A DNA stretch of 64,000 nucleotides from Oscillospiraceae bacterium (GCA_015068825.1 SVJU01000001.1:124001-188000); one strand, 5' to 3'. Counted from the first letter of the stretch, positions 24,179 to 40,605 are shown. The notes: generated by a model from the sequence alone, not told the origin. Program-made: numbers and translations.

Positions 24179-24686
24179 TTATTTGCAAAAACCTGTTCCT
24201 GTTTTTGATTTGTGATTAAATTTGTCTTCTAAAAGTCGCAATGCTTCACCGAATCGCTGATAGTGAACAATTTCTCTTGCACGAAGAAATTTTATTGCAT
24301 CGTTTACATCAGGATCGTCAGATAAGCGAAGAATGTTATCATAAGTTGCTCTTGCTTTCTGCTCTGCTGCTAAGTCTTCGTTTAAATCTGCAATCGGGTC
24401 ACCCGATACTGCAATAGAAAAAGCATTAAATGGTGAACCATTTGAATTAGCAGGATATACACCAGTTGCGTGATTTATAAAATAATCACCAAATCCAGAA
24501 TTTTTAACAATGTCTGAATTTAAATCTCTTGTCAGCTGATAAACAATTGCACCAACCATTTCAAGATGGGCAAGTTCTTCTGTACCTATATCATTAAGAA
24601 TACCTTTTGTTTCAGCTGTTGGCATAGTGTATCTTTGAGAAAGATATCTTAGTGATGCACCTAATTCGCCGTCAGGTCCGCCGTAC
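24179..24686 (-). pseudogene. cotJC: cotJC 3' segment: manganese-catalase spore-coat protein, interrupted
   Basis: This piece encodes 165 residues from PDGELGASL to the C-terminus GTGFCK. It keeps the di-manganese ligands of the family: Glu of PDGELG, GTEELAHLEM (ExxH), the Glu in DLAAEQKAR and REIVHYQRF. It has no start region: the nearest in-frame ATG/TTG (24688-24691) has no RBS. The missing N-terminus (31 codons ending in AQYGG) lies 15.5 kb away at 40248-40156, just after cotJB. Joining the two at the shared 10-bp TCCGCCGTAC (24677-24686) gives an unbroken 196-codon gene, the usual CotJC length. CotJC is a mother-cell-made coat enzyme that removes peroxide. Confidence 0.93.
24677..24686 (-). 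other. Left attachment core of the cotJC element
   Basis: TCCGCCGTAC on the plus strand; on the cotJC strand it encodes the Tyr-Gly-Gly codons. It is identical to 40156-40165 and in the same orientation. Flanking bases diverge at once on both sides. Confidence 0.88.
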
Positions 24687-24754
24687 ATCAAAATATTAAA
24701 ATAAATGTATAAATGAAAATGTTGATTTTTTTGACAACAATGCTATTTTTAAGG

Positions 24755-24798
24755 TTTGCATAGGGTGGATAAAAGTTCTACCTATGCAAATTTTTTTT
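24755..24798 (+). terminator. Intrinsic terminator near left end of the element
   Basis: TTTGCATAGG (24755-24764) pairs with CCTATGCAAA (24781-24790), followed by eight T residues. No plus-strand gene precedes it in the integrated form; in the excised circle it would lie downstream of the recombinase gene. Confidence 0.8.
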
Positions 24799-24851
24799 GC
24801 AAAGGTATAATAATGATACAATAAAATTTTTATAAGGAAAGGTGAAATATT

Positions 24852-25478
24852 ATGAAATTAACAAAAAGACTTATATTGACAGTACTTATTTTAGCCATTT
24901 TTACTTCTTGTTTTTCAGGATGCAAAAAAGATGCTGAAGTTAGCACAGATGCACTTGAAGTTGTTACAATCTGGGGCAATGGCGCAGGAGTAAATGTTGA
25001 TGCTAAAATTGCTCAGGAATATAACGAAACAATAGGAAAAGAAAAAGGTGTTAAAATTGATTTTCAGGCAAAAGAGGGAGATGTTTCTCAGCAGATTTCG
25101 ATTGCGCTTCAGTCAGGAAATGCACCCGATCTTTTTGGTGGCGGTAAAATAAAAGAGTTTTCTCAAAAAGGATATATTGCGCCTATTTCAAAATTTAAAG
25201 GCGGTAAAGAATTTGTTGATAACGCAGTTAAACACGGCAGTGCTTATTCTGAAGATGTTAATGTGTCGGGAAATGAGGCTTATACTGTATCTTTGAGCGT
25301 TCTTACATTTGGGCTTGTTTATAACAAAGATATGTTTAAGGCAGCTGGTATTGTTGACGAAAACGGTGAAGCTACTCCTCCTAAAACATGGGATGAGCTA
25401 AGAGAATATGCAAAAAAACTTACAGATAAATCAAAAAGACAGTATGGTATAATTCTTCCTTTAAAATGGTCAGGCTGA
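24852..25478 (+). pseudogene. Sugar ABC transporter substrate-binding lipoprotein, truncated
   Basis: The 208-residue frame begins with a lipoprotein signal (basic start, hydrophobic core, lipobox FSGC at about residue 25). It continues as a family-1 extracellular solute-binding protein (VVTIWGNGAG, SGNAPDLFGGG, GLVYNKDMFKAAGI, PKTWDELREYAKKL). It stops abruptly at LKWSG, where complete members continue to about 420-450 residues. The DNA after the stop belongs to a different gene in another frame. No permease genes follow. The truncation removes the second lobe, so sugar binding is not expected. Confidence 0.88.
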
Positions 25479-25689
25479 GTCATTCACAAAGATTGAAAAT
25501 GTAGAATCATCTGAATATTTTGATTTAGGTAAAGATGCACCTTGTAATCCAGGAGTTGCAACACTTTATGTTTTAGGTAAGGTAAATGGACACACAGGAA
25601 TGTTCAGAAGTACAGATTTTGGTAAAACATGGGTTGAAATAAGTGATTTTAACGAACACTCACTTTGGAATTCTATTAAGTTCTTCTAA
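25474..25689 (+). pseudogene. Fragment of a GH74-like enzyme (Asp-box repeat)
   Basis: In the frame beginning GAG at 25477, about 70 codons read as SFTKIENVESSEYFDLGK, then PALYV-like ATLYVLGKVNG, then GMFRSTDFGKTWVEIS, ending at TAA 25687-25689. STDFGKTW is an Asp-box (SxDxGxTW), and the spacing and wording match the C-terminal propeller of GH74 xyloglucanases. There is no start, and both ends are joined to unrelated sequence. It is a scrap left between the truncated binding protein and the Gly-rich protein. Confidence 0.75.
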
Positions 25690-27253
25690 AGGTTCAGGCG
25701 GTGGAAGAGGCGGTTCATCGGGCGGAAGTTCTGGGGGCTTATCAGGTGGAAGTTCTGGTGGTTCGTCTTCGGGAGGTTCAACCGGTAGCTCATCTACACC
25801 TTCAAAACCATCTTCGGGTGCTGCAAGCAACGAAAACAAGCCTTATGAGATAGAAAACATTTCATTGGAAGATGGATTTGAATTTGAAGAAGATTTCGAT
25901 AAAGAAGTATTAGATTACGAAGTAATCATTGATTTTGATGTTGATACATTAAAATTAAATACTAAATTTACTGCCGGCGCAACTGTAACAATTGACGGAA
26001 AAGAAGCTTTATCAGAAACACCGTTTGAGATTTTAAATATCGAAAGCGGCGAAAGCGAAGTTGAAATTGTTATCATGGACGGCATAAGAACACTTAAAAC
26101 CTATAAAATAAAGATAAATAAAGGTTATCCTGCTCCGGAAGGTACAATAGAAGCATTAAATGAATTGTTTAAAACAACACAAAATGCCGAAGAAGATGCA
26201 CAGGCTATTTTAGATGCATTTGGAAATGCAAAAATAGAAGGGGCAATAATACTTTTAACAGCGCAGTACAAAGCTGAATATGACATAATGGCGAAAGATA
26301 GCGATTTAACACAAAGACAGTTCATGTCATTGTTATCTAAAGTTAACGAAGAAGATAGCGATATTTTAAAAACTGCGCTTGGAATTAAAGATGAAGATGG
26401 AGTTGTATATACAAAAACTATTGCAATGACCGAGAACGGTATGTTTAATGTAGGTGTAAGATATGCTGCTACAAGTGCAGGGTCTAATAAAAAGCTTGCG
26501 GTATATATTGATGGAGTTAAATATGAATCAGAAGAAATTAATCTTGATTCTAAAAACGGATGGGTTGATACCAATATTAAAGTTCCGCTTATAATAGGCG
26601 ATAATGAGCTTTCTATGTATGCCGAAACAGAAGAGGACGGTAACTTTGGTATTATTGTCAAAGATATTGCAAAAACCGGCGAAAAGCTTGCTACATCAAT
26701 CTTTAAACTCGAAGCAGAAAATGCAGAGTATTCTACTACAAACGCAACACCATACCAGAGTAGTACACTTGATGCAGGTTATAAGCAGACAAAATCAAGC
26801 GTTTCGGGTTCTCCTGTGGTTGTTGGTGGTGGAAATATAGTATTCAGATTCAACTCACCTGCCGCACAAAATGCTACATTAAAAATCACATATTATATGG
26901 GTGCTTCAGGAAGTGACTGGAGACTTGGTTTCTTTAATCCTGTTGCTACTCCTTCAAGCTATAATCTTGATATGGTAGAGGGTGTTGATTATCCTGCATT
27001 GTCAGAAGCAGTTTTCAATGCAGCTACATGGTGCTCTAATACAACAAAATATACATTCGAAGTTAATGTAGATGTTGTAAAAGGAGAAAACGTAGTTTGG
27101 ATTCCGGGACGAAATCTACTTTGTGTAAATGCAGAACAAAACGGTACTGCCAATATGTATATTAATAATTCAAAACGACCAAATCATCAGACACAGGTTG
27201 ACTTTATTGAAGTTGTACCTGCGGACCTTGATTTAACTGCTATAAAAAAATAA
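25643..27253 (+). CDS. Secreted-type protein lacking its N-terminus: Gly/Ser linker, cadherin-like domain, C-terminal CBM-like module
   Basis: The open frame is 536 codons, but its first ten codons overlap the GH74 fragment and the GTG start has no RBS, so the true 5' end is missing. Order: Gly/Ser-rich linker (residues about 12-65), a cadherin-like beta-sandwich (about 66-165), a helical segment (about 168-245), an immunoglobulin-like stretch, and a C-terminal module (about 355-530) opening LEAENAEYSTTNATPY. That module recurs in the next gene (WRLGFFNPVATPSSYNL and ENVVWIPGRNLLC in both). The module resembles CBM6/CBM35-like sugar-binding folds in its opening. Probably a surface or secreted glycan-binding protein when intact. 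Confidence 0.7.
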   Translation: MILTNTHFGILLSSSKGSGGGRGGSSGGSSGGLSGGSSGGSSSGGSTGSSSTPSKPSSGAASNENKPYEIENISLEDGFEFEEDFDKEVLDYEVIIDFDVDTLKLNTKFTAGATVTIDGKEALSETPFEILNIESGESEVEIVIMDGIRTLKTYKIKINKGYPAPEGTIEALNELFKTTQNAEEDAQAILDAFGNAKIEGAIILLTAQYKAEYDIMAKDSDLTQRQFMSLLSKVNEEDSDILKTALGIKDEDGVVYTKTIAMTENGMFNVGVRYAATSAGSNKKLAVYIDGVKYESEEINLDSKNGWVDTNIKVPLIIGDNELSMYAETEEDGNFGIIVKDIAKTGEKLATSIFKLEAENAEYSTTNATPYQSSTLDAGYKQTKSSVSGSPVVVGGGNIVFRFNSPAAQNATLKITYYMGASGSDWRLGFFNPVATPSSYNLDMVEGVDYPALSEAVFNAATWCSNTTKYTFEVNVDVVKGENVVWIPGRNLLCVNAEQNGTANMYINNSKRPNHQTQVDFIEVVPADLDLTAIKK

Positions 27254-27278
27254 AAGCAAATTTAAAAGGAGATAAATT

Positions 27279-29387
27279 ATGAAAAATAAGCTAATCTATC
27301 TTTTGTGTTTGCTCATACTTATAAATAGTTTTATATTCGTACAGGTTTTTGCTGATGATTTATCGGTAACGTTTTCGGCTTCAAATTACAATCATTCAAA
27401 TATAATAACAGCCAACGATGGTACAAAATTCTGGCTTAACGGAGATGTTTCGCTCAGCTTTAATGCTGAAAAAAGCGGGAAGGCGATGATGAAAATTTCG
27501 CTTCTTGCTTTAGAGTCGGGAAAACAGGGACTTGTGTTTTTTAATCAGACAGAAGCTGACGAAAGAGTTTATGCCGACAACGCTCCGGCGGCAAAGGATG
27601 CAGTAGGTGGGGGAGCAATAAACATCCCCACCTTTACCGCAATAAACTTGGTTTCTAAAGAAAGCTTTAAGGATTATATCTTTTATGTGGATGTTAAACA
27701 GGGAATAAATACAATATTTATTCCAAACGGAAACTTTACAAATGATTGTGACAAATTAGTTTATGAAATAGCAAGTGGTGTTGGGGGTAACAACAAGGTC
27801 TGCTATAAATCAATAAGCATTGAAGGCTGCAATGATTTAAGCTATAAAATTTATCCTGATGATGTTTCGTCGAATAACCTTACATACCATCCCGACGGCC
27901 AGATTGTAGAAGGCTATGACAAGCTTGATGCTCTTACAAATCATACAGTAAGACAGGAATATGAGTCAATGTTTACTGTTATACCATTTTATGTGGAAAA
28001 CGAAGGAGATTATATAGTAAACATAAGGTATAACGCTTATGCTCAAACTGCATTAAAAGAAAAAATACCTGCAGCGGTGTATCTGGATGCTGATTTAACA
28101 GGTCTTAATAATGCTAAGTGGCAGGATTTTCTTGATACTAATGTTTACACAGACGAAAAAATAAAAGAAGCTACAGATGAGCAAATAAGAGTTATTACAA
28201 AAAACAACACAATCGAGCCTGTCGATTTGGGCGGATGGATGACATCACTTTATGATGAAAATCAAAAATCTGCACCATTTTATCACTTAAAATCGTTTAA
28301 ATTAAGTAACCTTGCAAAAGGCGACCATACGCTTTTGTTCTATACAGCAAGGGATATTTTGCAAAGCACAGATAAGGTTGTTAATAAGGATGTATATTTT
28401 AATTCATTTGAATTTGAATTTTTAACACCCGAGTATGAAAAAATAGAAACATTTTGTGTGCCGGTTGTAAATATGCAAACCACATCAGCAAATAAAGCAC
28501 TGATTCCTAAGTTTTATGACGATGCAAAAAAAGACCTTGCACTTTCAGAAAACGAGTGGAAAAACACACTTTATATACCTGTTACAGTGGCAAATAACAC
28601 AAAAGAAAATATTAATGGAATGGTTGCGGTTGTATTTTACAAAGATAAAGAACTTAAAACTGTAGATACACATTCGTTTAATCTTTTACCATACCAAAGC
28701 TTTGAAGAAGTATTGGATGCCTCATTTGCCGGCATTGATGCCGATACCTTTAAGGTATTTATATGGAATAAAGAAAGCATAATGCCTTATAACTCTCCAT
28801 CAATTATTTTGGGAGAGAATGAGGTTGAAGAAATAACTGCTTTGAAGATAGAAGCAGAAGATGCCGAGTATGCTACAACTAATGCAACAACGCATCAGAA
28901 TACTTCTGTTAATGCAGGTTATGCTCAAACCAAAGGCAATGGTGCAAAGGTTGTAGGTGGAGGAAATATAGTATTTAGGTTTAATTCGCCTCAGGCACAA
29001 GAGGTTACATTAAAAATTGTTTATTATATGGGTTCTGCAACAACTGATTGGCGACTTGGCTTCTTTAATCCTGTTGCCACACCTTCAAGCTATAATCTTA
29101 ATATGCAGGCGGGTGTTGATTATCCCGCACTTTCTGAAGCAGTTTTTGTAGACACATCATGGAAGGCTGCAAATAATACAGAACATACATTTTCGGCAAA
29201 AGTTACTGCTAAAAAAGGTGAAAATGTAGTTTGGATTCCAGGACGAAATCTACTTTGTGCAAATACCGGTAACACGGCTACTTTGAACATGTATGAAGAC
29301 TCTAATGGAAAACGACCGAACATTCAGACGCAGCTTGATTATATTGAAATAACACCAACAGTTAAAAATGTAACTAAAACAGAGTAA
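27279..29387 (+). CDS. Secreted multi-module protein, paralogue A (putative glycan-binding)
   Basis: This 702-residue protein has a signal peptide (residues 1-25, ending VFA-DD) and an AAAGGAG RBS. Modules in order: M1 (about 27-188; opening VTFSASNYNHS, with LVFFNQ); M2 (about 200-385; YVENEGDYIVNIRY ... KGDHTLLFY); M3 (about 395-510; CARDB-like, VTVANNTKENINGMVAVVFYKD); and a C-terminal CBM-like module (about 525-695) matching the preceding gene. M1-M3 occur in the same order in the next gene. No catalytic motif, sortase signal or SLH repeat was seen. Function unknown; a role in binding or sensing extracellular glycans is inferred from neighbours. Confidence 0.85.
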   Translation: MKNKLIYLLCLLILINSFIFVQVFADDLSVTFSASNYNHSNIITANDGTKFWLNGDVSLSFNAEKSGKAMMKISLLALESGKQGLVFFNQTEADERVYADNAPAAKDAVGGGAINIPTFTAINLVSKESFKDYIFYVDVKQGINTIFIPNGNFTNDCDKLVYEIASGVGGNNKVCYKSISIEGCNDLSYKIYPDDVSSNNLTYHPDGQIVEGYDKLDALTNHTVRQEYESMFTVIPFYVENEGDYIVNIRYNAYAQTALKEKIPAAVYLDADLTGLNNAKWQDFLDTNVYTDEKIKEATDEQIRVITKNNTIEPVDLGGWMTSLYDENQKSAPFYHLKSFKLSNLAKGDHTLLFYTARDILQSTDKVVNKDVYFNSFEFEFLTPEYEKIETFCVPVVNMQTTSANKALIPKFYDDAKKDLALSENEWKNTLYIPVTVANNTKENINGMVAVVFYKDKELKTVDTHSFNLLPYQSFEEVLDASFAGIDADTFKVFIWNKESIMPYNSPSIILGENEVEEITALKIEAEDAEYATTNATTHQNTSVNAGYAQTKGNGAKVVGGGNIVFRFNSPQAQEVTLKIVYYMGSATTDWRLGFFNPVATPSSYNLNMQAGVDYPALSEAVFVDTSWKAANNTEHTFSAKVTAKKGENVVWIPGRNLLCANTGNTATLNMYEDSNGKRPNIQTQLDYIEITPTVKNVTKTE

Positions 29388-29445
29388 TTTAACAGGCAAA
29401 AATTTTGTCTGAAAAATAAAAAATTTTTTTAAGGAGTGTAAAAAT

Positions 29446-31251
29446 ATGAAAAGAATTTTTACTATGTTATTAACAGTAATTCTTCTTGTAAGTCAGTTTA
29501 GTGCAATGTCAGTTTTTGCTGCCGAAGTTGCAGGCACACAGGCTGACCCGATTAGCGAAGTAGGCGATACAGCAACTTTTTTAGCATCTGATAAATACCA
29601 GTGGCCTACTAAGTTTGTGAACACTGATGGTAGCGATGCAGGTTTGGGTGCATTTGTTATGAACGCAGCTGTAAAATTTGATTTTTATTCAGCTAAAGCT
29701 CAGAGTGTTAAGCTTAGTGTAAAAGTAGCACCATGGCAGCCATCTGAAGCTAAAACTGCACTTTTGTTTTTTAATCCTATAGCAACACCTACTTCTTCTC
29801 AGGCTTCTTCAATGACCGAAGGCGTGGATTATCCTGCAAAATCTGATGCGGTTATAAACTATACTTTTACAGCATATGGTGATTATTATCAATATCATTT
29901 AAACCGTGTTGAAGGCAAAGTATATATGAAATATTCTAACCCTGCAGACTGGCCGGTAAAAGAAGCTGTTGTTGACGCAGTTGAAGGCAAGAATACCGTT
30001 TGGTTCCCAAATGGTTTATATAGCGGCGCTAACGGAAATGTTTGTTTATATTCTGTAACTGTTGAAGCTTTGGAAGAAGACGCAGGTGAGGATGAAGAAG
30101 AAGGCGGATTTGACGACGGTGTTGAAAAAGCAACTTTTTATGTTTCTGATATAGAAGGCAAAGAAGATTTTATGTATAAAGAAAGCGGCGACTATACAAT
30201 ACAGTCATATCTTGGTGCATCTAATAAACAAGGCTATACAACTAAAAGAAGTAATTCAAAAGGTAATTACACATCAATTCCGTTCAGCGTAGAGGAAAAA
30301 GGCGATTACATTGTAAATGTATATTACGGACTTTGGTATGACAATCAAAGCTGGGTAATGGATAGAGCATCTGCAATGTATCTTGACCAAAAGCCTTCAC
30401 AAACTCCAAACGAATTAATAAGTGCTTACAGTAGTGCATCCAACTCTGATTTAACATATCTTGATAGCTATAATGAATACAGAGCTTCTCTTGGTTTAGA
30501 AGCTGTTGAAGCATATCCGGATACAGAAACTGCTCAGTGGTGGAACTTTAAAAACACAACTTTAGCTGGTTTTGATACAACCAAAAAAATTACTTCTGCC
30601 AACTGGTACAGAACAGAACCTTTAGGATATGACAATGACGGACAAGCGAAAATTAGTCCTACAATGGCATCATATTTCAGAGTAAATTCATTTGTATTAA
30701 ATGACATTGACGCGGGCGACCATGTAGCAACATTTTTAACTGAGCCACAGGATTCAAATGCCGACGGTGCATTTGAAGTCAAAGGAGAGCTTTGCTATAA
30801 TGCTGATATTATGATAAACAGAATTGAAATTGTTCCTGTAACAGAAAATATCAAGCCTGCACTTGCAACTTATATTTATAATGCTGGCGCAGTTGCTTCG
30901 CAAACATCAAGACCAAACTGGGCAAACTATCTTACAAGCCTTGAAGATGCAAATATTATAGGAACAGACATTACTTTTGGTGTTGAAGTAACAAATCCTT
31001 CTTCTTTATCAAAAGAAGTAGGCTATAATGTAATTTTAGCTTACTATGGCGAAGGTGATAAACTACTTAGTATTGATACTCCCGAAGGCAGTTCATTTAC
31101 TGTTCCTGTAGCAGCAAAAACAACTGTAAGAAAAGAATTTAAAAAACCAATTGCCGACCTTCCGGAAGGTACTTTAAAATTAAAAGTATTCTTATGGGGT
31201 GCAGGTGATAGCCTTGTTATTCCTCAGGGTGCGGCAACAGTTTTAGATTAA
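29446..31251 (+). CDS. Secreted multi-module protein, paralogue B
   Basis: This 601-residue protein has a signal peptide ending SVFA-AE (about residue 25) and AAGGAG upstream. It repeats the architecture of paralogue A: M1 (about 35-205; TFLASDKYQWP ... LLFFNPIATP), an acidic linker (EEDAGEDEEEGG), M2 (about 225-470; VEEKGDYIVNVYYGL ... DAGDHVATFL) and M3 (about 490-600; VEVTNPSSLSKEVGYNVILAYYG). It lacks the extra C-terminal module. M1 echoes the FFNPxATPxS wording of the other gene's C-terminal module, suggesting that M1 and the C-terminal module are themselves homologous. No recognised enzyme motif. Confidence 0.85.
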   Translation: MKRIFTMLLTVILLVSQFSAMSVFAAEVAGTQADPISEVGDTATFLASDKYQWPTKFVNTDGSDAGLGAFVMNAAVKFDFYSAKAQSVKLSVKVAPWQPSEAKTALLFFNPIATPTSSQASSMTEGVDYPAKSDAVINYTFTAYGDYYQYHLNRVEGKVYMKYSNPADWPVKEAVVDAVEGKNTVWFPNGLYSGANGNVCLYSVTVEALEEDAGEDEEEGGFDDGVEKATFYVSDIEGKEDFMYKESGDYTIQSYLGASNKQGYTTKRSNSKGNYTSIPFSVEEKGDYIVNVYYGLWYDNQSWVMDRASAMYLDQKPSQTPNELISAYSSASNSDLTYLDSYNEYRASLGLEAVEAYPDTETAQWWNFKNTTLAGFDTTKKITSANWYRTEPLGYDNDGQAKISPTMASYFRVNSFVLNDIDAGDHVATFLTEPQDSNADGAFEVKGELCYNADIMINRIEIVPVTENIKPALATYIYNAGAVASQTSRPNWANYLTSLEDANIIGTDITFGVEVTNPSSLSKEVGYNVILAYYGEGDKLLSIDTPEGSSFTVPVAAKTTVRKEFKKPIADLPEGTLKLKVFLWGAGDSLVIPQGAATVLD

Positions 31252-31261
31252 ATAACAAATC

Positions 31262-31299
31262 AATTCAACCTGCAAAGACATTCCTTTGCAGGTTGAATT
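31262..31299 (+). terminator. Hairpin after the secreted-protein genes
   Basis: A 16-bp perfect inverted repeat (31262-31277 with 31284-31299; loop ACATTC) lies just after the stop codon. It lacks a T-run, so it may be a weak terminator or an mRNA 3'-end stabiliser. Confidence 0.7.
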
Positions 31300-31333
31300 A
31301 AATGTATATAAATATAGTGGAAATAAATAATTC

Positions 31334-31363
31334 TTGCTTTAAATAAGCATAATGAAGTATAAT
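31334..31363 (+). promoter_or_regulatory. Promoter of the two-component system
   Basis: TTGCTT (31334-31339) and TATAAT (31358-31363) are spaced 18 bp, 33 bp upstream of the histidine kinase start. Confidence 0.6.
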
Positions 31364-31396
31364 AAAAAAAAGAAATAAAACAAAAAGGATAAAAAT

Positions 31397-32866
31397 ATGA
31401 TAATTTCTATACTTCTTCTTATTATACTTATTGCTGTACTGTTTTTTTATAATATCTATTCAAAAATAAGCGTAATGTTTATTGTTCAGCTTGGTGGACT
31501 TTGCTTAATAATTACAAGCCTTATAATGTTTACAATGAAGCTTTCTTATTACAACGGAATTTTTGGCTTGGAAATGTGGATATATTACCTTATGCGCAAA
31601 ATAGAAGTTAACATCAATGATGTAAAACTATGGATGGCAATAGGATATTTTTTGATTTTTATATCGCAGAGCTTTATAATGTGGGAATTTTCTAAAAAAG
31701 GCAAAAGAGCAAAAACACTTTTTGCTTTTTCAATGATTTTTGCATTAGGTTTTGTTGTTTTTAATACCAATACAGTATCGGAAATTATTTATATTAAGGC
31801 AAACGAAGTTTTTTCATTTGAGAAAAGCCAGAAGGTTAATGATATACTTACTTCTTTTAATTACGGATTAATTATTTACTTTGCTTTTTTACCTTTTTGG
31901 TCTTTGGTATCAAATATTAAAAATACAAGAATAATATTAAAAAAACGCCGTGGCATGATTATAACAGTATTTCTTGCGTTTGTTGAATTTATTGTTATTT
32001 CATTCTCTTTTTATTCAAGGTTAAAAAATATGCTTGTGTTTTATATGATTAATATGATTGATACATATACAAACGCGATAGGTGAATTATCTGTTATAAT
32101 TCCTATTATAAGTGTTTGTGTACTTATAGTTATGGCATTTATCACAGTTAAATTTGATGTATTTAACACTATCGACTTTTTTAAACCGTATGTTGCGCGG
32201 TCTAATATGAAAATTCTTCTTATGGATTTAAAATATATTTTTCATGATTTTAAAAACATAATGATGACAATTATTGCTCTTCAGAATACTGCACTTGATG
32301 ATTATGGCGGTGAAGAGGGCAAAAAAGCACTTGTGAAAATAGGTGATTTTGCATATTCTTATGCACAAAAAGTTGGCGAACTTTTAGATATTTACAAAAG
32401 TAAAAAAATAACTTTTAAAGATGTTGATTTATTAGCAATTATTTATGAGGCTTCTGCAAGAATAAAAGCAGAAAGTAATGTAGAAATTAATATTTTAAAT
32501 AATGTTTACGAAAACACTTCTATCTCGGGCGATGAGTATCAGCTTAAAATTCTTTTTTATAATCTTTTAAAAAATGCAGTTGATGCTATTAAAGTGAAAA
32601 ATATGCCCGACGGAAGAATTGATATAAATTTTATTGAAGAAGACAAATGGCTTTGTATTGATTTGACTGATAATGGAATTGGTATGAGCAGAAAAGAAAC
32701 TAAAAAAATATGGAAACCATTTGTAAGCTCTAAAAAAACTTTTATGAACTGGGGTATAGGGTTAAATCAGGTTAGAAATATTATAGAAGCACATTTAGGT
32801 TATATAGATATTATGAGTAAGAAAAATGAATATACCAAAATACAGTTGGTTTTCCAACGAAATTAA
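31397..32866 (+). CDS. Membrane sensor histidine kinase
   Basis: The 489-residue protein has about seven membrane helices in residues 1-255, then a cytoplasmic kinase. The phosphoacceptor region is KYIFHDFKNIMM (about 288), with His in FHDFKN; the N box is NLLKNAVDAI (about 390), G1 is DNGIGMS and G2 is NWGIGLNQVRNII. The multi-helix input domain without an extracellular loop domain suggests sensing within the membrane or of a lipid or peptide signal. Paired 14 bp upstream of a NarL-type regulator. The pair lies between secreted-protein genes and the beta-galactosidase gene and may control this cargo; that is inference. Confidence 0.9.
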   Translation: MIISILLLIILIAVLFFYNIYSKISVMFIVQLGGLCLIITSLIMFTMKLSYYNGIFGLEMWIYYLMRKIEVNINDVKLWMAIGYFLIFISQSFIMWEFSKKGKRAKTLFAFSMIFALGFVVFNTNTVSEIIYIKANEVFSFEKSQKVNDILTSFNYGLIIYFAFLPFWSLVSNIKNTRIILKKRRGMIITVFLAFVEFIVISFSFYSRLKNMLVFYMINMIDTYTNAIGELSVIIPIISVCVLIVMAFITVKFDVFNTIDFFKPYVARSNMKILLMDLKYIFHDFKNIMMTIIALQNTALDDYGGEEGKKALVKIGDFAYSYAQKVGELLDIYKSKKITFKDVDLLAIIYEASARIKAESNVEINILNNVYENTSISGDEYQLKILFYNLLKNAVDAIKVKNMPDGRIDINFIEEDKWLCIDLTDNGIGMSRKETKKIWKPFVSSKKTFMNWGIGLNQVRNIIEAHLGYIDIMSKKNEYTKIQLVFQRN

Positions 32867-32880
32867 GGCGGTAAGTTTTT

Positions 32881-33573
32881 ATGATTAGAGTAATGATATG
32901 TGATGATATTGAAGAAATTTGCACATTTTTTAAAAAAGCAATAAGTCAGACAAGCGATATGGAGGTTGTCGCCGTTGCAAACAGTGGTATTGATGCCGTT
33001 AAAATGGCTGATGAAGTAAAGCCTGATGTTGTTTTAATGGATATTCAGATGGAAACAAGAACTGCCGGAATAGATGCTGCAAAAAAGATTTTTGAAAATA
33101 ATCCTGAAATAAAAATAATTATGCTTACTGTTCATGAGGAGTCAGAACTTATAGTTCATTCTTATCTTGCAGGTGCGGTTGACTATATTAATAAGCTTTC
33201 AAAACCCAATTATATAACCGAGCAAATAAGAAAAATATATTCCGAAGAAATTCTTATAGGCTCAACAATCGCTCTTCATATTCGTGATGAATTTATTAAA
33301 ACTCAAAAAATTCAAAAATCACTTTTGTTTTTTATGACACAATGGTCTACACTGACAGAGAGTGAAATTGATATAATAAGACTTCTTGCTGATGGAAAAA
33401 GCAGGCGTGAGATTGCAGATGAGAAAAGTGTTGTTCTTGCAACGGTAAAAACACATATAAATAATATATTAAGAAAGTTTGAATGCTCAAGCACCAAAGA
33501 GCTATTGACAAACCTAAAGGATATGGGTATAATAGAGTATCTTTTAAAAACCATGGAAAAGAAACACAACTAA
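32881..33573 (+). CDS. NarL/FixJ-type response regulator
   Basis: This 230-residue protein has a receiver domain (residues about 1-125; phospho-Asp in VVLMDIQM near residue 56, acidic pair DD at 9-10, Lys in NKLSKP) and a C-terminal LuxR-type HTH (LTESEIDIIRLLADGKSRRE ... VKTHINNILRKF). It is the partner of the adjacent histidine kinase and probably activates transcription. It is followed after 18 bp by the beta-galactosidase gene, so all three may be co-transcribed. Confidence 0.95.
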   Translation: MIRVMICDDIEEICTFFKKAISQTSDMEVVAVANSGIDAVKMADEVKPDVVLMDIQMETRTAGIDAAKKIFENNPEIKIIMLTVHEESELIVHSYLAGAVDYINKLSKPNYITEQIRKIYSEEILIGSTIALHIRDEFIKTQKIQKSLLFFMTQWSTLTESEIDIIRLLADGKSRREIADEKSVVLATVKTHINNILRKFECSSTKELLTNLKDMGIIEYLLKTMEKKHN

Positions 33574-33591
33574 AAAAGGAGCATAAAAAAT

Positions 33592-36450
33592 ATGCGAGAA
33601 TACGAAAATATTTTAAAAACATCAGATAACAGGCTTAAACAAAGGGCATATTACATTCCCGAAAACGAAGGTGGATATACACTTTTAAATGGTGAATGGA
33701 ATTTTAAGTTTTTTGAGCGTGATATTGATGTGCCTGATGAGATTGATAACTGGGACAAGATTAAAGTTCCGTCGTGCTGGCAGCTTTGTGGGTATGAGAA
33801 ACCTAATTATACCAATGTAAATTTTCCTTATCCTGTTGACCCGCCGTATGTACCTGATGAAAACCCGTGCGGTGTTTACAAAAGGGAATTTGAGATTTTT
33901 GATTTAAATAAAAAGCATTATATCGTTTTTGAGGGCGTGTGTTCTTGCGTTTATTTATACATAAACAATAAATATGTTGGCTTTAGTCAGGGAAGTCATC
34001 TTCAGGCAGAATTTGATATTTCTCCTTTTGTAAAAGAGGGGGTAAACACCATTACGGCAAAGGTTTTAAAATGGTGTGTATCAAGCTATCTTGAAGATCA
34101 GGACTTTTTTAGATATAACGGAATTTTCAGAGATGTATATTTGCTTGAAAGACCTGAAAATCACATAAAAGATATTGTTATTAAAACAGAAAAAAACAAA
34201 GTTAAGGTTGATTTTGAGGGACAAGCTAATATAAAGCTTTATGATAAAGATATTCTTTTGTGTGAGAAAGAATGTGACAAATATTTTGAGTTTGAAATAG
34301 AAAATGCGGTTTTGTGGAATGCAGAAAAACCATATTTATATACACTTAAGTTTGAGTTCGAAGGCGAAATTATTACTCAAAAATTCGGCTTTGTTGAAAT
34401 TGAAATTTCAAGTGAAAAAGAGCTCCTTATAAATGGCGAATCGGTTAAATTAAAAGGTGTAAATCATCACGATACCCACAAAGAAAACGGTTGGTGTATG
34501 ACTGATGAAGAAATATATAATGACCTCTTGCTTATGAAAAAGCTTAATATGAATGCGGTTCGTACTTCGCATTATCCGCCAACTCCAAAATTTTTGAATT
34601 TCTGTGATGAAATTGGTCTTTATGTGATTTTGGAATGTGATATGGAAAGCCACGGATTTACTCAAAGACTTGTTGATAATGAAAATCGTCGTGCAGGATA
34701 CGACTGCGAAGATCCAATATGGCCATGCACAAATCCTAAGTGGGAAAAAGAACTTTGCAAAAGAATGGAACGATGCGTACTTCGTGACAGAAATCATCCC
34801 TCTATATTTATGTGGTCGCTTGGAAACGAAAGCGGATATGGCATTAATATGCGAAAAATGCTTGAAAAAGCAAGAGAAATTGACCCATCAAGACTTACTC
34901 ACGCAGAAGGTGCTTATCTTTCGCAGCTTGGAGAGGCTGAAGATGAGCCGACAAGTGTATATTCAAGGATGTATACAAATATTGTTTTTTGCGCTGAATA
35001 TGCAGATAACAAGGAAAATAAACAACCTATGTTTTTGTGTGAATATTGTCATACAATGGGTAACGGCCCCGGGGATGTGTATGATTATGTAGAAACTATG
35101 TATGCCCACAAAGGCTTTATTGGCGGATGTATCTGGGAATGGGCAGACCATGTTGTATTAGAAGACGGTGTGCAGAAATACGGTGGCGATTTTGGTGAAA
35201 TCACACACGATAAAAACTTTTGCTGTGACGGGCTGGTTTTTGCCGACAGAAGCTTTAAAGCAGGTACGTACGAAACAAAGATAGCTTATCAGAATATAAA
35301 AACAGAGCTTAAAAATAACGAAATCTACATAACAAACAGATATGACTTTACAAATCTTAATGAATATAAACTTAAAATAGATATTGAAATTGATGGTAAA
35401 GTTATAGAAACAAAAGAACTTGTTTTAGATGTAAAACCAAAAGAAACGGCTAAAATAAAGCTTGATACCATATTGCCCAAAAGTTGTAAGCTTGGAAGTT
35501 ATGTGAATATTTATTTATACGATAATGATGGTTATGAATGGGCAATGAGTCAGCATAAGCTTGATGTTTTGGTTGAAAAACATATAAATACATCTAAATT
35601 AGCTAACCTTACCGAAGATAAAGAATATATTTATGCAAATGGTGACGGCTTTAGTTATAGATTTTCTAAAGTTTACGGAAACTTTGACAGTATGCTTGTA
35701 GATAAAAAAGAAAAGCTTGCGGGTATGACAAAGCTTACTGCACATCGTGCACCAACCGATAACGACAGGCACATAAGATTTAAGTGGAATACATATCACG
35801 AAAAAAATAATCTTGGAGAAGCTATAAACAGAACTATGTCAAAAATATATTCCTGCGAAATAAAAGAAGGAAGAATTTTTGTGTCAGGTTCTCTTTCTGG
35901 TGTTTCAAGAGTGCCTTATTTCAGATATAACCTTGAAGTTTTGGTTTTTGAAGATGGAGAAATCAAATTCAATTTAAAGGGTAATGTGCGTGAAAATGCA
36001 ATATGGCTACCAAGGCTCGGATTTGAATTTAAACTCTTGTATAACGATGATAAATTTACATATTTTGCTTATGGTGATAAAGAAAGCTATATTGATATGC
36101 ACCATCACGCAAAGGTTGGTATGTACCAAAGCAGTGCCGATAATGAATATGTAAATTATGTTTATCCGCAGGAGCATGGAAATCATTATGGAGCAAAAAT
36201 GCTTGATATAGATAATTCACTAAAATTTGTATCAAATGATACATTTGAATTTAATGTGTCACATTATAATTCTAAAGCTTTAGAAGAAGCAACACATACA
36301 AATGAGCTTGTGAAGGATAATACAACAAATGTGAGAATTGATTATAAGGTTTCGGGAATAGGCTCACATTCTTGTGGACCTGAACTTCTGGAAAAATACA
36401 GATTCAGTGAAAAAGAAGTAAACTTTGAATTTTGCATTTTGAAAAATTAA
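33592..36450 (+). CDS. GH2 beta-galactosidase (LacZ-type)
   Basis: The 952-residue enzyme has the five-domain LacZ layout. It has a sugar-binding domain (WNFKFFERDI ... VPSCWQLCGYEKPNY), a TIM barrel with KGVNHHDTHKENG, acid/base Glu in FMWSLGNESGYG (about residue 408), nucleophile Glu in PMFLCEYCHTMGNG (about 483), and a C-terminal beta-galactosidase small-chain domain (RAPTDNDRHIRFKW onward, ending near SHSCGPELLEKYR). No signal peptide, so it is cytoplasmic and cleaves terminal beta-galactosides from imported oligosaccharides. AAAGGAG upstream. It is part of the cotJC-element cargo and would be lost on excision. Confidence 0.96.
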   Translation: MREYENILKTSDNRLKQRAYYIPENEGGYTLLNGEWNFKFFERDIDVPDEIDNWDKIKVPSCWQLCGYEKPNYTNVNFPYPVDPPYVPDENPCGVYKREFEIFDLNKKHYIVFEGVCSCVYLYINNKYVGFSQGSHLQAEFDISPFVKEGVNTITAKVLKWCVSSYLEDQDFFRYNGIFRDVYLLERPENHIKDIVIKTEKNKVKVDFEGQANIKLYDKDILLCEKECDKYFEFEIENAVLWNAEKPYLYTLKFEFEGEIITQKFGFVEIEISSEKELLINGESVKLKGVNHHDTHKENGWCMTDEEIYNDLLLMKKLNMNAVRTSHYPPTPKFLNFCDEIGLYVILECDMESHGFTQRLVDNENRRAGYDCEDPIWPCTNPKWEKELCKRMERCVLRDRNHPSIFMWSLGNESGYGINMRKMLEKAREIDPSRLTHAEGAYLSQLGEAEDEPTSVYSRMYTNIVFCAEYADNKENKQPMFLCEYCHTMGNGPGDVYDYVETMYAHKGFIGGCIWEWADHVVLEDGVQKYGGDFGEITHDKNFCCDGLVFADRSFKAGTYETKIAYQNIKTELKNNEIYITNRYDFTNLNEYKLKIDIEIDGKVIETKELVLDVKPKETAKIKLDTILPKSCKLGSYVNIYLYDNDGYEWAMSQHKLDVLVEKHINTSKLANLTEDKEYIYANGDGFSYRFSKVYGNFDSMLVDKKEKLAGMTKLTAHRAPTDNDRHIRFKWNTYHEKNNLGEAINRTMSKIYSCEIKEGRIFVSGSLSGVSRVPYFRYNLEVLVFEDGEIKFNLKGNVRENAIWLPRLGFEFKLLYNDDKFTYFAYGDKESYIDMHHHAKVGMYQSSADNEYVNYVYPQEHGNHYGAKMLDIDNSLKFVSNDTFEFNVSHYNSKALEEATHTNELVKDNTTNVRIDYKVSGIGSHSCGPELLEKYRFSEKEVNFEFCILKN

Positions 36451-36593
36451 TGATTTGAAAATGGGTATATATTATCCAAAGAAAATAAGATTTTTATTTT
36501 TATGAAATCAGTAGTTATGATTAAGAACGATACACGACATTTTTGAGTTAGATGTGCAGGCAATATAAATAAGAAAATTTGATATGCATAAAC

Positions 36594-36640
36594 AAAAAAG
36601 CGGAAACGAGAAATTGGAAAATTCTCGAGTCCGCTTTTTT
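36594..36640 (+). terminator. Terminator after beta-galactosidase gene
   Basis: AAAAAAGCGGA (36594-36604) pairs with TCCGCTTTTTT (36630-36640), with an inner CGAGAA/TTCTCG stem. The rest of 36451-36721 shows no gene. Confidence 0.85.
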
Positions 36641-36721
36641 TATCAGTAGAGAAAAGGCGCATATTTTTAACTGAAGTATTCTTTTAATTGAATTTGGAAT
36701 ACTATAAGCAGAGGTGAAGAT

Positions 36722-38026
36722 ATGAAATCAATATGGAATAATATTGAAAAACCAAAATTCGACACACTTTATGGTGATGTAAAAACAGATGTTTTAATTA
36801 TTGGAGGAGGTTTGTGTGGCATATTATGTGCATATATGTTAAAGAATGAAGGTGTTGACTTTGTTTTAGCTGAAGCGGATAAAATATGCAATGGAATAAC
36901 AAATGCAACTACGGCGAAAATTACATTTTTGCATGGTCTTATATATGATAAAATTATAAGAAAGTACGGAGCTGATAAAGCACAACTTTATTATAAAAGC
37001 CAAAAGTGTGCCTTTGAAATACTTACAAGAATTGCAAGTGAAATTGACAGCGATTTTGAAATTTGCAATTCTTTTGTATATTCCTTAAACAACAGGAGTG
37101 TAATAGAAAGAGAAGTAGAGGCATTAAATAAGATTGGCTGCAACGCCAAATTTTGTGAGGATACACAGGTGCCTTTCAGTATTGCCGGAGCTGTTAAGAT
37201 AGAAAACCAGGCAAAATTTCATCCATTGAAATTTGCTTATACAATAGCTAAAGATTTAAGAATATATGAAGATACGAAAATTATTGAAGTAAAAAACAAT
37301 ATGGCAATTACGGATAAAGGAACAATTACAGCAAAGAAAATTATTGTTGCAACACATTTTCCATTTATTAACAAACATGGATCATATTTTCTTAAAATGT
37401 ATCAACATAGATCATATGTACTTGCACTTAAAAATGCACAAAGTATTAAAGATATGTATGTTGATGAATCAAATGATGGTTTGTCTTTCAGAAGCTTCGG
37501 TGATTTGTTACTTCTTGGAGGAGGAAGTCATCGCACAGGGAAACAAGGCGGAAATTGGGAAGAACTTGAGAAGTTTTCAGAAAAATATTATCCTGAGGCA
37601 CAAGAAATTCAAAGATGGGCAACTCAGGATTGTATAACACTTGATTCTATACCGTATATTGGTAATTATTCAAAAACAACGCCTGATTTATATGTGGCAA
37701 CAGGATTTAATAAATGGGGAATGACATCCTCAATGGTTTCGGCTATGATTTTAAAAGATATGATATGTAAAGGAAAAAGCGAATATGAAGATGTTTATTC
37801 GCCATCAAGAACTATGGTTCATCCACAACTTGCAGTTAATATGTTTGAATCTTTAAAAGGGTTGGCTACATTAAAGGTACCAAGATGTCCGCATATGGGA
37901 TGTGCACTAAAATACAATAAACAGGAACATTCATGGGATTGTTCGTGTCATGGTTCAAGATTTGATGAGAAAGGAAAAATGATAAACAATCCTGCTACAA
38001 CAGATGCAAATGTGCGGTACAACTGA
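36722..38026 (+). CDS. FAD-dependent oxidoreductase with C-terminal Rieske domain
   Basis: The 434-residue protein has a DAO-type FAD domain (DVLIIGGGLCGILCAYMLK at the N-terminus; YVATGFNKWGMTSS near residue 320). It is fused to a Rieske [2Fe-2S] domain at the C-terminus: CPHMGCAL (about 393-400) and CSCHGSRF (about 411-418) supply the two Cys and two His ligands. This fusion is widespread in Bacillota and probably passes electrons between NAD(P)H-linked flavin chemistry and an unknown partner. It ends shortly after NPAT, as in family members. It is the last metabolic gene before the recombinase module. Confidence 0.93.
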   Translation: MKSIWNNIEKPKFDTLYGDVKTDVLIIGGGLCGILCAYMLKNEGVDFVLAEADKICNGITNATTAKITFLHGLIYDKIIRKYGADKAQLYYKSQKCAFEILTRIASEIDSDFEICNSFVYSLNNRSVIEREVEALNKIGCNAKFCEDTQVPFSIAGAVKIENQAKFHPLKFAYTIAKDLRIYEDTKIIEVKNNMAITDKGTITAKKIIVATHFPFINKHGSYFLKMYQHRSYVLALKNAQSIKDMYVDESNDGLSFRSFGDLLLLGGGSHRTGKQGGNWEELEKFSEKYYPEAQEIQRWATQDCITLDSIPYIGNYSKTTPDLYVATGFNKWGMTSSMVSAMILKDMICKGKSEYEDVYSPSRTMVHPQLAVNMFESLKGLATLKVPRCPHMGCALKYNKQEHSWDCSCHGSRFDEKGKMINNPATTDANVRYN

Positions 38027-38169
38027 GTGAAAAATTGTAACCATATTTGATAATAATAAAACTAAAAACTCTCAGGGGGTATAAAATTTATTTATAAATA
38101 ATAAAAAGCGCATAAAACACCAATAAACTAATTTAAAACAAAATTTAAAAACTTAATATCCATAAAAAT

Positions 38170-38196
38170 AAGAGTATCAATTTACGATACTCTTTT
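38170..38196 (+). terminator. Intrinsic terminator downstream of FAD/Rieske gene
   Basis: AAGAGTATC (38170-38178) pairs with GATACTCTT (38186-38194), followed by T-rich sequence. It separates the cargo from the recombinase module. Confidence 0.8.
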
Positions 38197-38302
38197 ATTT
38201 TCGCCCAAAACAAGACTACGCTTTTAGTACCTTTGAGAACTATTATGGATTACAACAAGGAATACATAAATTAACAAATTTAAGATTGTAATCAGGTGCT
38301 GT

Positions 38303-38332
38303 GAATAGGTCTGGCAGAGATTACATATATAT
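38303..38332 (+). promoter_or_regulatory. Possible sigma-E-like promoter of the recombinase module
   Basis: GAATA (38303-38307) and CATATATAT (38324-38332) are spaced about 16 bp upstream of the small ORF. They loosely resemble mother-cell sigma-E elements (ATA -35; CATACAnT -10). The match is weak and A/T-rich sequence gives such hits by chance. Confidence 0.25.
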
Positions 38333-38359
38333 TAATTACGAGGTGAGAAGTATTTGTAT

Positions 38360-38503
38360 ATGGTAAATATATCTTTTGATGGTAAGGATGATGTACATAT
38401 TAAAGATATAAAAAACTTGGAAGTTTCGCAAAGAAGCGCAATTTTAGAAAAAGCGTTATCGACATTTTACAAGAAAAATGTGAAAATTGATTTTATAAAA
38501 TAA
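38360..38503 (+). CDS. Small soluble protein next to recombinase (47 aa), candidate directionality factor
   Basis: ATG at 38360 (or TTG at 38354, better spaced from GAGGTGAG) opens a 47-codon frame. It starts MVNISFDGKDDVHIKDIKN, contains a predicted helix (SQRSAILEKALSTFYKK) and ends VKIDFIK. No known domain is recognised. It is the only other gene between the cargo terminator and the recombinase, 95 bp upstream of it. Large serine recombinases need a small partner to excise, and these are often encoded beside them, so it is a candidate. Nothing in the sequence proves it. Confidence 0.55.
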   Translation: MVNISFDGKDDVHIKDIKNLEVSQRSAILEKALSTFYKKNVKIDFIK

Positions 38504-38514
38504 AAAAATTATTG

Positions 38515-38572
38515 ACCGCCCTATCGAAAAATTAAACCAAACAAGGTATAATTTATATAAAATAAGGGCGGT
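38515..38572. promoter_or_regulatory. Inverted repeat flanking the recombinase promoter region
   Basis: ACCGCCCT (38515-38522) and AGGGCGGT (38565-38572) form an 8-bp inverted repeat around a 42-base A/T-rich segment with TATAAT (38547-38552). The right arm is followed by five T. It could be an operator pair, or a long-loop terminator/attenuator in the leader of the recombinase gene. Confidence 0.4.
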
Positions 38573-38597
38573 TTTTCATTAAGGAGATGCTAAATGA

Positions 38598-40079
38598 ATG
38601 AAAATAGCCGCCGCCTATATTCGAGTATCAACTGAAGACCAAATTGAATATAGTCCGGATAGTCAATTAAGTGCAATACAAGGATATGCCAAAAAAAACG
38701 GATACTGCCTTCCTTCGCAGTATGTTTTTATAGATGAGGGTATTAGTGGAAGAACTGTAGGTAAGCGTGAAGGATTTAAAAATATGATAGCTTTAGCTAA
38801 AAGCAAACCTGTGCCGTTTAATACTATTCTTGTATGGAAATACAGTCGTTTTGCAAGAAACAGGGAAGACAGTGTTGTCTATAAATCGATGCTCAGAAAG
38901 CAGTGTGGTATTGATGTTGTATCAATTAGTGAATCAACAGGAGATGACAAAATGTCTATTTTGTTTGAAGCTATGATTGAGGCAATGGATGAGTACTATA
39001 GCATCAATCTTTCTGAAGAAGTTAAAAGGGGTATGGCCGAAAAAGCCAAGAGGGGTGGAGTTCTTTCTATAGCGCCATTCGGATATAAAATTGAAAACGG
39101 AGAGTTTGTTACAGTTGAATCTGAAGCCGAGGTTATTAAAAATGTATTTTCAAGTTATTTAAACGGGAGTGGCTTTTTAAGTCTGGCAAAAAAACTCAAC
39201 GCATTAGGTGTAAGAACTCACAAAGGTAACAAAATAGAAAAAAGAACTATTGAATACTGGCTCAATAATCCTATTTATAATGGAAAAACAAGATGGAATC
39301 CAACGGGCAGAACCTCAAGAAATTATGACAGTAAAGATTTGATAATTTCAGAAGGTTCTCACAAGATGATTATTGATGATTCGATGTGGAATGCCGTGCA
39401 ACAAAAATTAAAAGAAAATAAAGCAAGGTACAAAAAGAGCATGAGAGAACCTAAAAAGGGTATGTCGCATTGGTTAAACGGAGTTCTTCGATGCGGAAAA
39501 TGCGGTAGTACACTTGTAAATTGTGGAGGAACCTACTATTGTGGTAATAAGGCAAAGGCACTATGCTTGGGTAATGGTGGTATCAGCACAAAGGTAATAT
39601 CAAAAATAATTATTGATAAACTTGAAGAAATTCTTGACTTAGATGATGTTTGTTTGCAGTTTGATACAAGCGACAAACCCGAAAATAAAGCTTATGTCTC
39701 CAATAATTTACGATTGTTACAAGTTAAAATTGAAGAAGCTGACAAAAAACTTGAACGTATCAAAGAGGCATACGAAAATGGTGTGGATACCATAGAAGAA
39801 TATAAGACAAACAAAGATAAGATTTGTAAAGAAGTAAATGAATTAAAGAAATTATTATCGGAAGAGAAGAAGCAAAATGAGAATGAAAATAAAATGCCTG
39901 ACCAAAGTATTGCAAAAGTTAAAGGTGATATACGAAAAATATCTGACATTTTAAGATCTGACGAAGTTACCAACGAAGAAAAAAATGCTGTTTTAAAAAG
40001 TATTATTAAAGAAATTGTTAAGATGGGTGATGACGGAAGAACTTTTCAAATTGTGTTCTGGAATCCAAAAGGAAACTAA
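38598..40079 (+). CDS. Large serine recombinase (SpoIVCA/resolvase type)
   Basis: The 493-residue protein has an N-terminal catalytic domain (AAAYIRVSTEDQIEYSPDSQ, with the nucleophile Ser in RVST at about residue 10, and YSRFARNRED with catalytic Arg near 78). It also has a recombinase domain (about 160-260; APFGYKIENGEF), a zinc ribbon (CGKCGSTLVNCGGTYYCGNK, about 298-317) and a C-terminal coiled-coil (about 370-450). Its length and architecture match SpoIVCA of the B. subtilis sigK skin. RBS AAGGAG precedes ATG 38598. It reads toward the right boundary of the element, 77 bp from the attachment core, and is the obvious enzyme for integration and excision at cotJC. Confidence 0.95.
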   Translation: MKIAAAYIRVSTEDQIEYSPDSQLSAIQGYAKKNGYCLPSQYVFIDEGISGRTVGKREGFKNMIALAKSKPVPFNTILVWKYSRFARNREDSVVYKSMLRKQCGIDVVSISESTGDDKMSILFEAMIEAMDEYYSINLSEEVKRGMAEKAKRGGVLSIAPFGYKIENGEFVTVESEAEVIKNVFSSYLNGSGFLSLAKKLNALGVRTHKGNKIEKRTIEYWLNNPIYNGKTRWNPTGRTSRNYDSKDLIISEGSHKMIIDDSMWNAVQQKLKENKARYKKSMREPKKGMSHWLNGVLRCGKCGSTLVNCGGTYYCGNKAKALCLGNGGISTKVISKIIIDKLEEILDLDDVCLQFDTSDKPENKAYVSNNLRLLQVKIEEADKKLERIKEAYENGVDTIEEYKTNKDKICKEVNELKKLLSEEKKQNENENKMPDQSIAKVKGDIRKISDILRSDEVTNEEKNAVLKSIIKEIVKMGDDGRTFQIVFWNPKGN

Positions 40080-40089
40080 AATTAAAGCC

Positions 40090-40108
40090 CAATATGGCTA
40101 CCATATTG
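40090..40108 (+). terminator. Hairpin after recombinase gene
   Basis: CAATATGG / CCATATTG with a 3-base loop lies 11 bp after the recombinase stop. It has no T-run; weak terminator or 3'-end structure. Confidence 0.4.
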
Positions 40109-40134
40109 CAAATGTTAAATGCAAGGACTTTTTG

Positions 40135-40248
40135 TTATAATCTTTTGCAGCATGCTCCGCCGTACTGGGCTATTATAAACTTTGCGAGTTCGGGGTTTTT
40201 GTTTTTTATTTTTACCGGGTACATAAGTCGTTTTTCATAATTCCACAT
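40135..40248 (-). pseudogene. cotJC: cotJC 5' segment, interrupted by the element
   Basis: ATG at 40248 follows GGAAGGAG, which overlaps the end of cotJB. The first 31 codons read as the CotJC N-terminus (MWNYEKRLMYPVKIKN and NPELAKFIIAQYGG). After the 10-bp core the frame runs only six foreign codons (ACCKRL) to a TAA at 40137. The rest of the protein is at 24676-24179. The good start signal and intact codons show no sign of decay, unlike an old pseudogene. Confidence 0.93.
40156..40165 (-). other. Right attachment core of the cotJC element
   Basis: TCCGCCGTAC, identical to 24677-24686 in direct orientation. On the cotJC strand it covers the last codons before the break (Tyr-Gly-Gly). Confidence 0.88.
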
Positions 40249-40254
40249 ATATTT

Positions 40255-40605
40255 TTATTCTCCTTCCTTCTGCCAGGGCCATTTTTGGTTTTCAGATACC
40301 CACTCAAACGGTGTTTCGTCTGAAGAATACATAGCTTCAAGTGGACCATATTTGGTCTGATAAGTGTTTTTCAGACTTTTTAGAGTAAAAGCAAGATTTT
40401 TAAAAAGCTTTAATGCCTCTTCACAATGAGGGTGAGTATCTAAAAACAAATTCAAATCATAAAGGGCAAAACCGACTTCTGAAATTCTTTTCAAAAGCTC
40501 TTTTTTGCCCATATTGTTATTATTATCATTTTCATTATTACAACCGCAGTTGTTGTTTAAATCATTGCATGCGCAATTTAATATTTCATCAATAGAAATT
40601 TTCAT
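40255..40605 (-). CDS. cotJB: Spore coat protein CotJB
   Basis: This 116-residue protein has the CotJB core in residues about 33-113: ALYDLNLFLDTHPHCEEALK, YQTKYGPLEA and a WPWQKEGE end. Residues 10-31 are an extra Asn/Cys-rich stretch (CACNDLNNNCGCNNENDNNN) not usual for the 80-90-residue family. AAAGGAG ten bases upstream supports ATG at 40605, so the extension is translated. In Bacillus, CotJA, CotJB and CotJC form an inner coat complex. It lies 25 bp after cotJA and 6 bp before the cotJC start. Confidence 0.92.
   Translation of the reverse strand: MKISIDEILNCACNDLNNNCGCNNENDNNNNMGKKELLKRISEVGFALYDLNLFLDTHPHCEEALKLFKNLAFTLKSLKNTYQTKYGPLEAMYSSDETPFEWVSENQKWPWQKEGE

Follow-up and report, generated by a model that had tools for sequence, protein, structure and literature searches.

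The stretch analysed here, referred to as the window, comprises 64,000 nucleotides from an Oscillospiraceae bacterium (GCA_015068825.1 SVJU01000001.1:124001-188000) and harbors on its minus strand the spore-coat genes cotJA, cotJB and cotJC, the last of which is interrupted after codon 31 by an inserted segment of 15,479 bp. cotJA (40631..40813; Pfam CotJA, 1.5e-14) is preceded by a CATACAAA box and followed by cotJB (40255..40605; Pfam CotJB, 2.8e-25) and the 5′ part of cotJC, whose 31 codons (40156..40248) lie downstream of the ribosome-binding site GAAGGAAGGAG; the intact cotJC genes of two relatives (G001 and G002) are 88-92% identical. The 3′ part, 165 codons and a stop codon, is located on the same strand at 24179..24676, matches Mn_catalase in Pfam (6.6e-46) and can be joined in frame. 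In B. subtilis, the sigma-E genes include cotJB and cotJC (PMC3416734).

Both break points carry the core GTACGGCGGA of a putative attachment (att) site, at 40156..40165 on the 5′ side and at 24677..24686 on the 3′ side (both minus strand). The window contains two copies of the 10-mer TCCGCCGTAC, at these positions and in direct orientation, and the crossover is predicted at the GG within GGCGG. Joining at the core results in a cotJC of 196 codons without internal stops, which reads MWNYEKRL...AQYGGPDGELGASLRYL... and, in the junction region, IIAQYGGPDGELGASLRYL; the predicted join sequence is ATAGCCCAGTACGGCGGACCTGACGGCG and that of the excised circle TTTGATGTACGGCGGAGCATGCTGC. The initial annotation of this DNA, made from the sequence alone, had described the split after codon 31, the shared direct core and the in-frame product of 196 codons, and the gene calls, the Pfam match and the joined translation bear out all three. 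As a side observation, the 3′ half (24179-24691) also matches phrog_7573 (7e-60); pieces of cotJC have been catalogued as viral proteins, the source of which is probably proviruses with a wrongly cut boundary.

Recombinase, small upstream gene and attachment sites

The segment encodes its own site-specific recombinase of 493 amino acids (38598..40079, plus strand), antiparallel to cotJC and with its 3′ end toward the right att site. Pfam detects the Resolvase and Recombinase domains, with the zinc ribbon slightly below the cut-off, and the translation contains the catalytic-serine motif YIRVSTEDQ (YxRVST type) of large serine recombinases. The protein matches the phage integrase family phrog_95 (4.6e-104) and, over residues 150-474, the SPbeta integrase YokA (SprA) in the PDB (1.3e-9). 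Its stop codon is located 76 bp inside the right core, one base pair less than the 77 bp given in the initial annotation, which had recognized a serine recombinase at this boundary.

Upstream of the recombinase gene and in the same direction lies an open reading frame (ORF) of 47 amino acids (38360..38503, plus strand), a candidate recombination directionality factor. It scored highest among the 988 ORFs of the window against a profile built from the small ORF of relatives (E 0.0024). A weak sigma-E-like promoter (GAATAGG...CATATATAT; 38303..38330, plus strand) is situated about 30 bp before it, and TATAAT at 38547..38552 (plus strand) is a candidate -10 element of a separate promoter for the recombinase. 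In the clade of the window, a small gene of about 47-63 codons directly precedes the recombinase gene in the same orientation. Six relatives have, ahead of this gene, the sigma-E-like motif GTTATKT-N15-CATAARAT with invariant spacing, which has no other occurrence in 4.36 Mb of strand sequence, and the recombinase gene of the relatives has TTGATT-N17-TAAAAT upstream. Other subclades of the recombinase possess different small genes that are divergently transcribed. None of the small candidate genes that were tried has a relative in Pfam, PHROG or the PDB, and a function as directionality factor is putative both for the window and for its relatives. The arrangement in the relatives, with a sigma-E-like promoter for the small gene and a separate one for the recombinase, resembles the control of SPbeta and the skin element of C. 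difficile, in which the recombinase is made constantly and the directionality factor is under sporulation control (PMC5595907).

To compare the sites, 59 junctions of the 5′ side and 42 of the 3′ side were aligned on GGNGG, which represents codons Gly30-Gly31. The element arms of both sides contain the same inverted half-site (~xCCrTACTGCAAAAgGtTAT) around GG, and in joined end pairs the shared core always includes or touches GGNGG or its neighbouring bases. The attP reconstructed for Caproicibacter fermentans, as read from its sequence, is GGCCATTCGGC-GG-GCCGAATGGCC, with an 11-bp dyad around GG. The family consensus and the free molecules thus show inverted half-sites on either side of a shared dinucleotide, and the window's own attP has a partial dyad.

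Such free molecules were detected among viral contigs. A contig of 22 kb (L225) is 99.1-99.2% identical to the element of a relative (G160) up to the core and then continues, at 97.9% identity, into the opposite end of that element, so that the two ends meet at TGGCGG, the predicted circle junction, in DNA of metagenome origin. Intact attP dyads beside a recombinase gene are also present in four further viral contigs (L218, L220, L222 and L227) and in the genome contig L083. A scan of IMG/VR with a degenerate attP pattern gave no match, though five viral contigs fetched by protein carry an attP. Relative to the recombinase gene, the core has the reverse orientation in some free attP sites. This variation accounts for the recombinase pointing toward the 5′ part of cotJC in certain species and toward the 3′ part elsewhere. 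The assumption that the two layouts represent two clades was rejected, because the recombinase tree mixes them, with 15 changes.

Element family, selection on the gene pieces and cargo

Two comparisons with related genomes, both envisaged in the initial annotation, were made. An empty site exists in G001, a member of the same genus, where rny, cotJA, cotJB and an uninterrupted cotJC that reads VIAQYGGPDGELGAS follow the gene order of the window; it shows that the two halves in the window are parts of one gene and that the element is an insertion. cotJC is intact in five further genomes of the same family as well (G002, G009, G013, G014 and G015). Homologous recombinases beside a split cotJC, in turn, recur in more than 60 other genomes, and as the gene is split there at the same codons, chance can be excluded. 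The scan, restricted to one genome per species, returned 73 loci. Nearly all full-length relatives of the recombinase adjoin, at their 3′ end, a piece of cotJC split near codon 31. This family spans Oscillospiraceae, Butyricicoccaceae, Acutalibacteraceae and Peptococcaceae, and in a search of 50 recombinase-bearing genomes, cotJC pieces were found in all 50.

Elements located on a single contig range in size from 2.3 kb in C. fermentans EA1 to about 57 kb (G149). The former comprises the recombinase gene, a small divergent ORF and a gene for a protein of 162 amino acids (L155:3287-3775, minus strand) that reads as amidase- or cell-wall-like. In Clostridium methylpentosum DSM 5476, the 5′ part of cotJC (G133:C11:617665) and the rest (G133:C15:95637) are situated in the middle of different large scaffolds, a placement that implies a huge insert, an inversion or a misassembly.

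The detached gene pieces appear to have been kept as coding sequence. No stop codon was found in 7,487 codons of detached 3′ halves (n=51) or in 2,066 codons of detached 5′ parts (n=74), in a data set that counts a few loci twice through overlapping fetches. Pairwise omega was calculated by NG86 from pairs with a synonymous divergence (dS) of 0.05-1.5. The 19 pairs of 3′ halves have a median of 0.18 and the 191 pairs of 5′ parts one of 0.24, the latter similar to intact genes (0.23), and the positions E35, E65 and H169 are invariant. Because dead fragments would not be free of stops at low omega, the most economical interpretation is that purifying selection acts on the halves, which would be translated as one protein after joining through excision.

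cotJC proved to be an insertion hot spot, which the initial annotation had not anticipated. In addition to codon 31, it is split near codon 62, with a core around GGNAC, and near codon 135, with the core GCAGA or TCGCAGCAGA. The recombinases at these sites are only about 22-28% identical to that of the window. The gene is in three pieces, which keep their order and lie on the same strand, in G142, G144, G148, Intestinibacillus massiliensis and G039, the last being a single contig of 4.8 Mb, and Butyricicoccus sp. Marseille-Q5471 has four pieces distributed over 69 kb (G154:C1:205516-274904). In another one-contig genome (G051), the pieces are 157 kb apart. The script used for core detection found no convincing shared core at the second site of Intestinibacillus (L152, L153), Butyricicoccus and G039, or at the third site of G061. 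At codon 31 itself, the att arms of G039 and G072 are unlike those of the family and the recombinase of G039 is only 24% identical, which means that more than one lineage has chosen this site. Altogether, among about 76 genomes that have a close cotJC, a hand count gave about 27 in which it is broken at one of these positions; the count includes unchecked cases, some of which may be contig ends. One apparent split gene (L245, G079:C16) was rejected, since it represents a local frameshift at codons 61-62 without an insert; this frameshift sits exactly at the position used by the second class of elements.

These data lend reasonable, if guarded, support to the view that cotJC is a class-wide docking gene in Clostridia, used by distantly related serine-recombinase elements at no fewer than three codon positions (about 31, 62 and 135) and sometimes by two or three at once. 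Species with three or four pieces would then need several exact excisions in the mother cell, and a tolerant gene needed in the mother cell only would be a safe harbour for mobile DNA.

The cargo of the window element consists of eight genes on the plus strand. Beginning at the left boundary, these encode a truncated extracellular solute-binding protein of 208 amino acids (24852..25478; SBP_bac_1 matched over 14-148 of 307), a Ser/Gly-rich protein with a cadherin-like domain in Pfam (25643..27253) and two large proteins with an N-terminal hydrophobic segment and no Pfam match (27279..29387 and 29446..31251). They are followed by a sensor histidine kinase (31397..32866; HATPase_c, 1.9e-14), a response regulator (32881..33573; from its translation and PHROG regulators), a beta-galactosidase-like enzyme of the GH2 type with 952 amino acids (33592..36450; read from the translation, no PHROG match) and an FAD-dependent oxidoreductase with a Rieske domain (36722..38026; DAO 1.5e-29, Rieske 3e-8). 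The three large proteins near the left end have signal-like N-termini or Ser/Gly-rich repeats. Among these eight proteins, no structural, packaging or lysis PHROG was found, the matches being limited to the kinase and the regulator; the element lacks the phage structural and replication genes that would mark it as a prophage.

Proposed excision in the mother cell and competing explanations

A sporulation gene whose frame is restored by precise excision, together with a dedicated recombinase gene beside the att site, corresponds to the organization of skin-type elements. We therefore regard the 15.5-kb segment, with a probability of roughly 0.8, as a sporulation-gene-intervening element without phage structural genes, the excision of which in the mother cell restores cotJC. 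According to this model, the large serine recombinase encoded on the element would have inserted it at the Gly-Gly codons of cotJC, where it would stay, with the gene broken, both during growth and in the spore line. During sporulation, the small directionality factor, expressed from a mother-cell promoter of the sigma-E type, would turn the continuously made recombinase to excision. Recombination of attL and attR at GG would release the element as a circle and form the complete 196-codon cotJC behind cotJAB and its promoter. As the mother cell dies, the germ line would retain the element.

The initial annotation had advanced this skin-like reading. Its core, one gene divided by an excisable element, is upheld by the intact gene in relatives, by the selection on the halves and by a relative's circle junction at the predicted core; the timing stays a prediction, based on the likely mother-cell role of cotJC, on published precedents and on the sigma-E-like promoter of relatives, of which the window has a weak version. 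We infer that the window copy is active, that the small gene acts as proposed and that excision takes place in the mother cell.

Several observations weigh against this interpretation. Neither the joined cotJC nor the circle junction is present in the element's own assembly, and the exact circle junction of the window element was not found among the viral contigs of IMG/VR, although their absence is what excision confined to mother cells would lead one to expect. The candidate directionality factor matches its family weakly (the E value given above) and is supported by its position, and the promoter preceding it is one of five loose matches in 64 kb, counting both strands. The omega of the 3′ halves rests on few unsaturated pairs. 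In the host genome, spo0A reads in two frames (G000:C54:42322-42632; L253, L254) owing to a single-base difference at a homopolymer, so that the strain may not sporulate unless this is an assembly error. Finally, a second intact cotJABC is located on the small contig C57 (L002), with a cotJC that is 62% identical, and the pressure to rejoin the cotJC of the window could therefore be weak; this locus could be a paralogue or part of a foreign contig. Because of the spo0A break, the second cotJABC and the missing joined and circular forms, the case is stronger for the family than for the activity of the window copy. A distant third Mn-catalase gene was noticed directly beside sigK in this genome (L003, G000:C6:47427-47987).

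The same observations have to be considered from the perspective of other explanations. A plain integrative element that landed in cotJC and inactivated it, with any excision serving transfer only, would agree with the ordinary cargo, with the second cotJC and apparently frameshifted spo0A of the host, and with free attP molecules, which could be transfer forms. We nevertheless consider it unlikely: inactivation, the alternative named in the initial annotation, does not predict that detached halves lack stop codons and evolve under purifying selection, as they do in dozens of species, most of the 50 queried genomes are without another intact close cotJC, the sites lie at codons that give a seamless join, and the directionality-factor candidate of the relatives has a sporulation-type promoter. 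The two-frame spo0A and the truncated solute-binding cargo gene would also suit an element that was once skin-like and has become a relic in a strain that has lost sporulation. This, too, seems improbable, and by a shade the more so, as the recombinase, both parts of cotJC and the att sites are intact, the genome has intact sigE, sigK and SpoIVA genes, and a single-base homopolymer difference such as that in spo0A is a common assembly error. That the source is a metagenome bin of 62 contigs raises the question of an assembly chimera or of two different genes wrongly juxtaposed. We attach hardly any weight to this explanation, since many assemblies, among them those of cultured isolates and the one-contig genomes G039 and G051, show the same layout within one contig, and since G001 carries both halves as one gene. 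We thus retain excision in the mother cell as the preferred explanation, and DNA splicing of cotJC during spore formation is probably widespread but unnoticed.

Significance and relation to known systems

Reports of programmed excision during sporulation concern a handful of genes, and cotJC is split in about one third of the sampled cotJC-bearing relatives in Clostridia, by elements from 2.3 to 157 kb and into up to four pieces in cultured isolates. In gut Clostridia, functional split genes are therefore likely to account for many fragments of cotJC and for many cases in which the gene seems to be missing. The family makes testable the idea that mobile elements prefer mother-cell genes because the rearranging cell passes nothing on, and it is a source of many new serine recombinases together with their paired att sites.

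Published elements interrupt sigK, spsM, spoVFB, spoVR, gerE and yabG (PMC4191935, PMC5025042, PMC5595907, PMC10747680). A close likeness is seen with the SPbeta prophage of Bacillus subtilis, the excision of which reconstitutes spsM in sporulation (PMC4191935). Both systems have a large serine recombinase of the same family, as indicated by the match to YokA/SprA, and split a gene for the spore envelope that is active, for cotJC probably so, in the mother cell. The separate small gene from which SPbeta expresses its directionality factor under sporulation control has a candidate counterpart in the window. In contrast to SPbeta, the target here is cotJC, the cargo is without phage structural genes, the host belongs to uncultured Clostridia and excision is predicted. 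Excision of the skin element in sigK of B. subtilis and C. difficile restores an interrupted mother-cell gene, as is predicted for the window element, and in C. difficile it is controlled by a small directionality factor (PMC5025042). cotJC differs in being a structural coat gene and not a sigma factor, and the att core is different. With gin in gerE of B. cereus ATCC10987 (PMC5595907), the window element shares non-phage cargo, a short core (9 bp in gin, 10 bp here) and a recombinase combined with a small factor, in the window a candidate one, whereas gin has three recombinase genes and another target. A serine recombinase near one end is also a feature of yin, in yabG of C. botulinum (PMC10747680), and of vfbin and vrin, which occupy spoVFB and spoVR (cited in PMC4191935); each splits another mother-cell gene, a class to which cotJC probably belongs. 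The report on yin found it in one strain only (PMC10747680), while members of the cotJC family occur in at least four bacterial families. In the open-access literature, to which the search was confined, no mention of an element in cotJC was found. Sporulation-gene-intervening elements are thus known as a kind; new here are cotJC as a target, the breadth of its element family and the repeated splitting of one gene.

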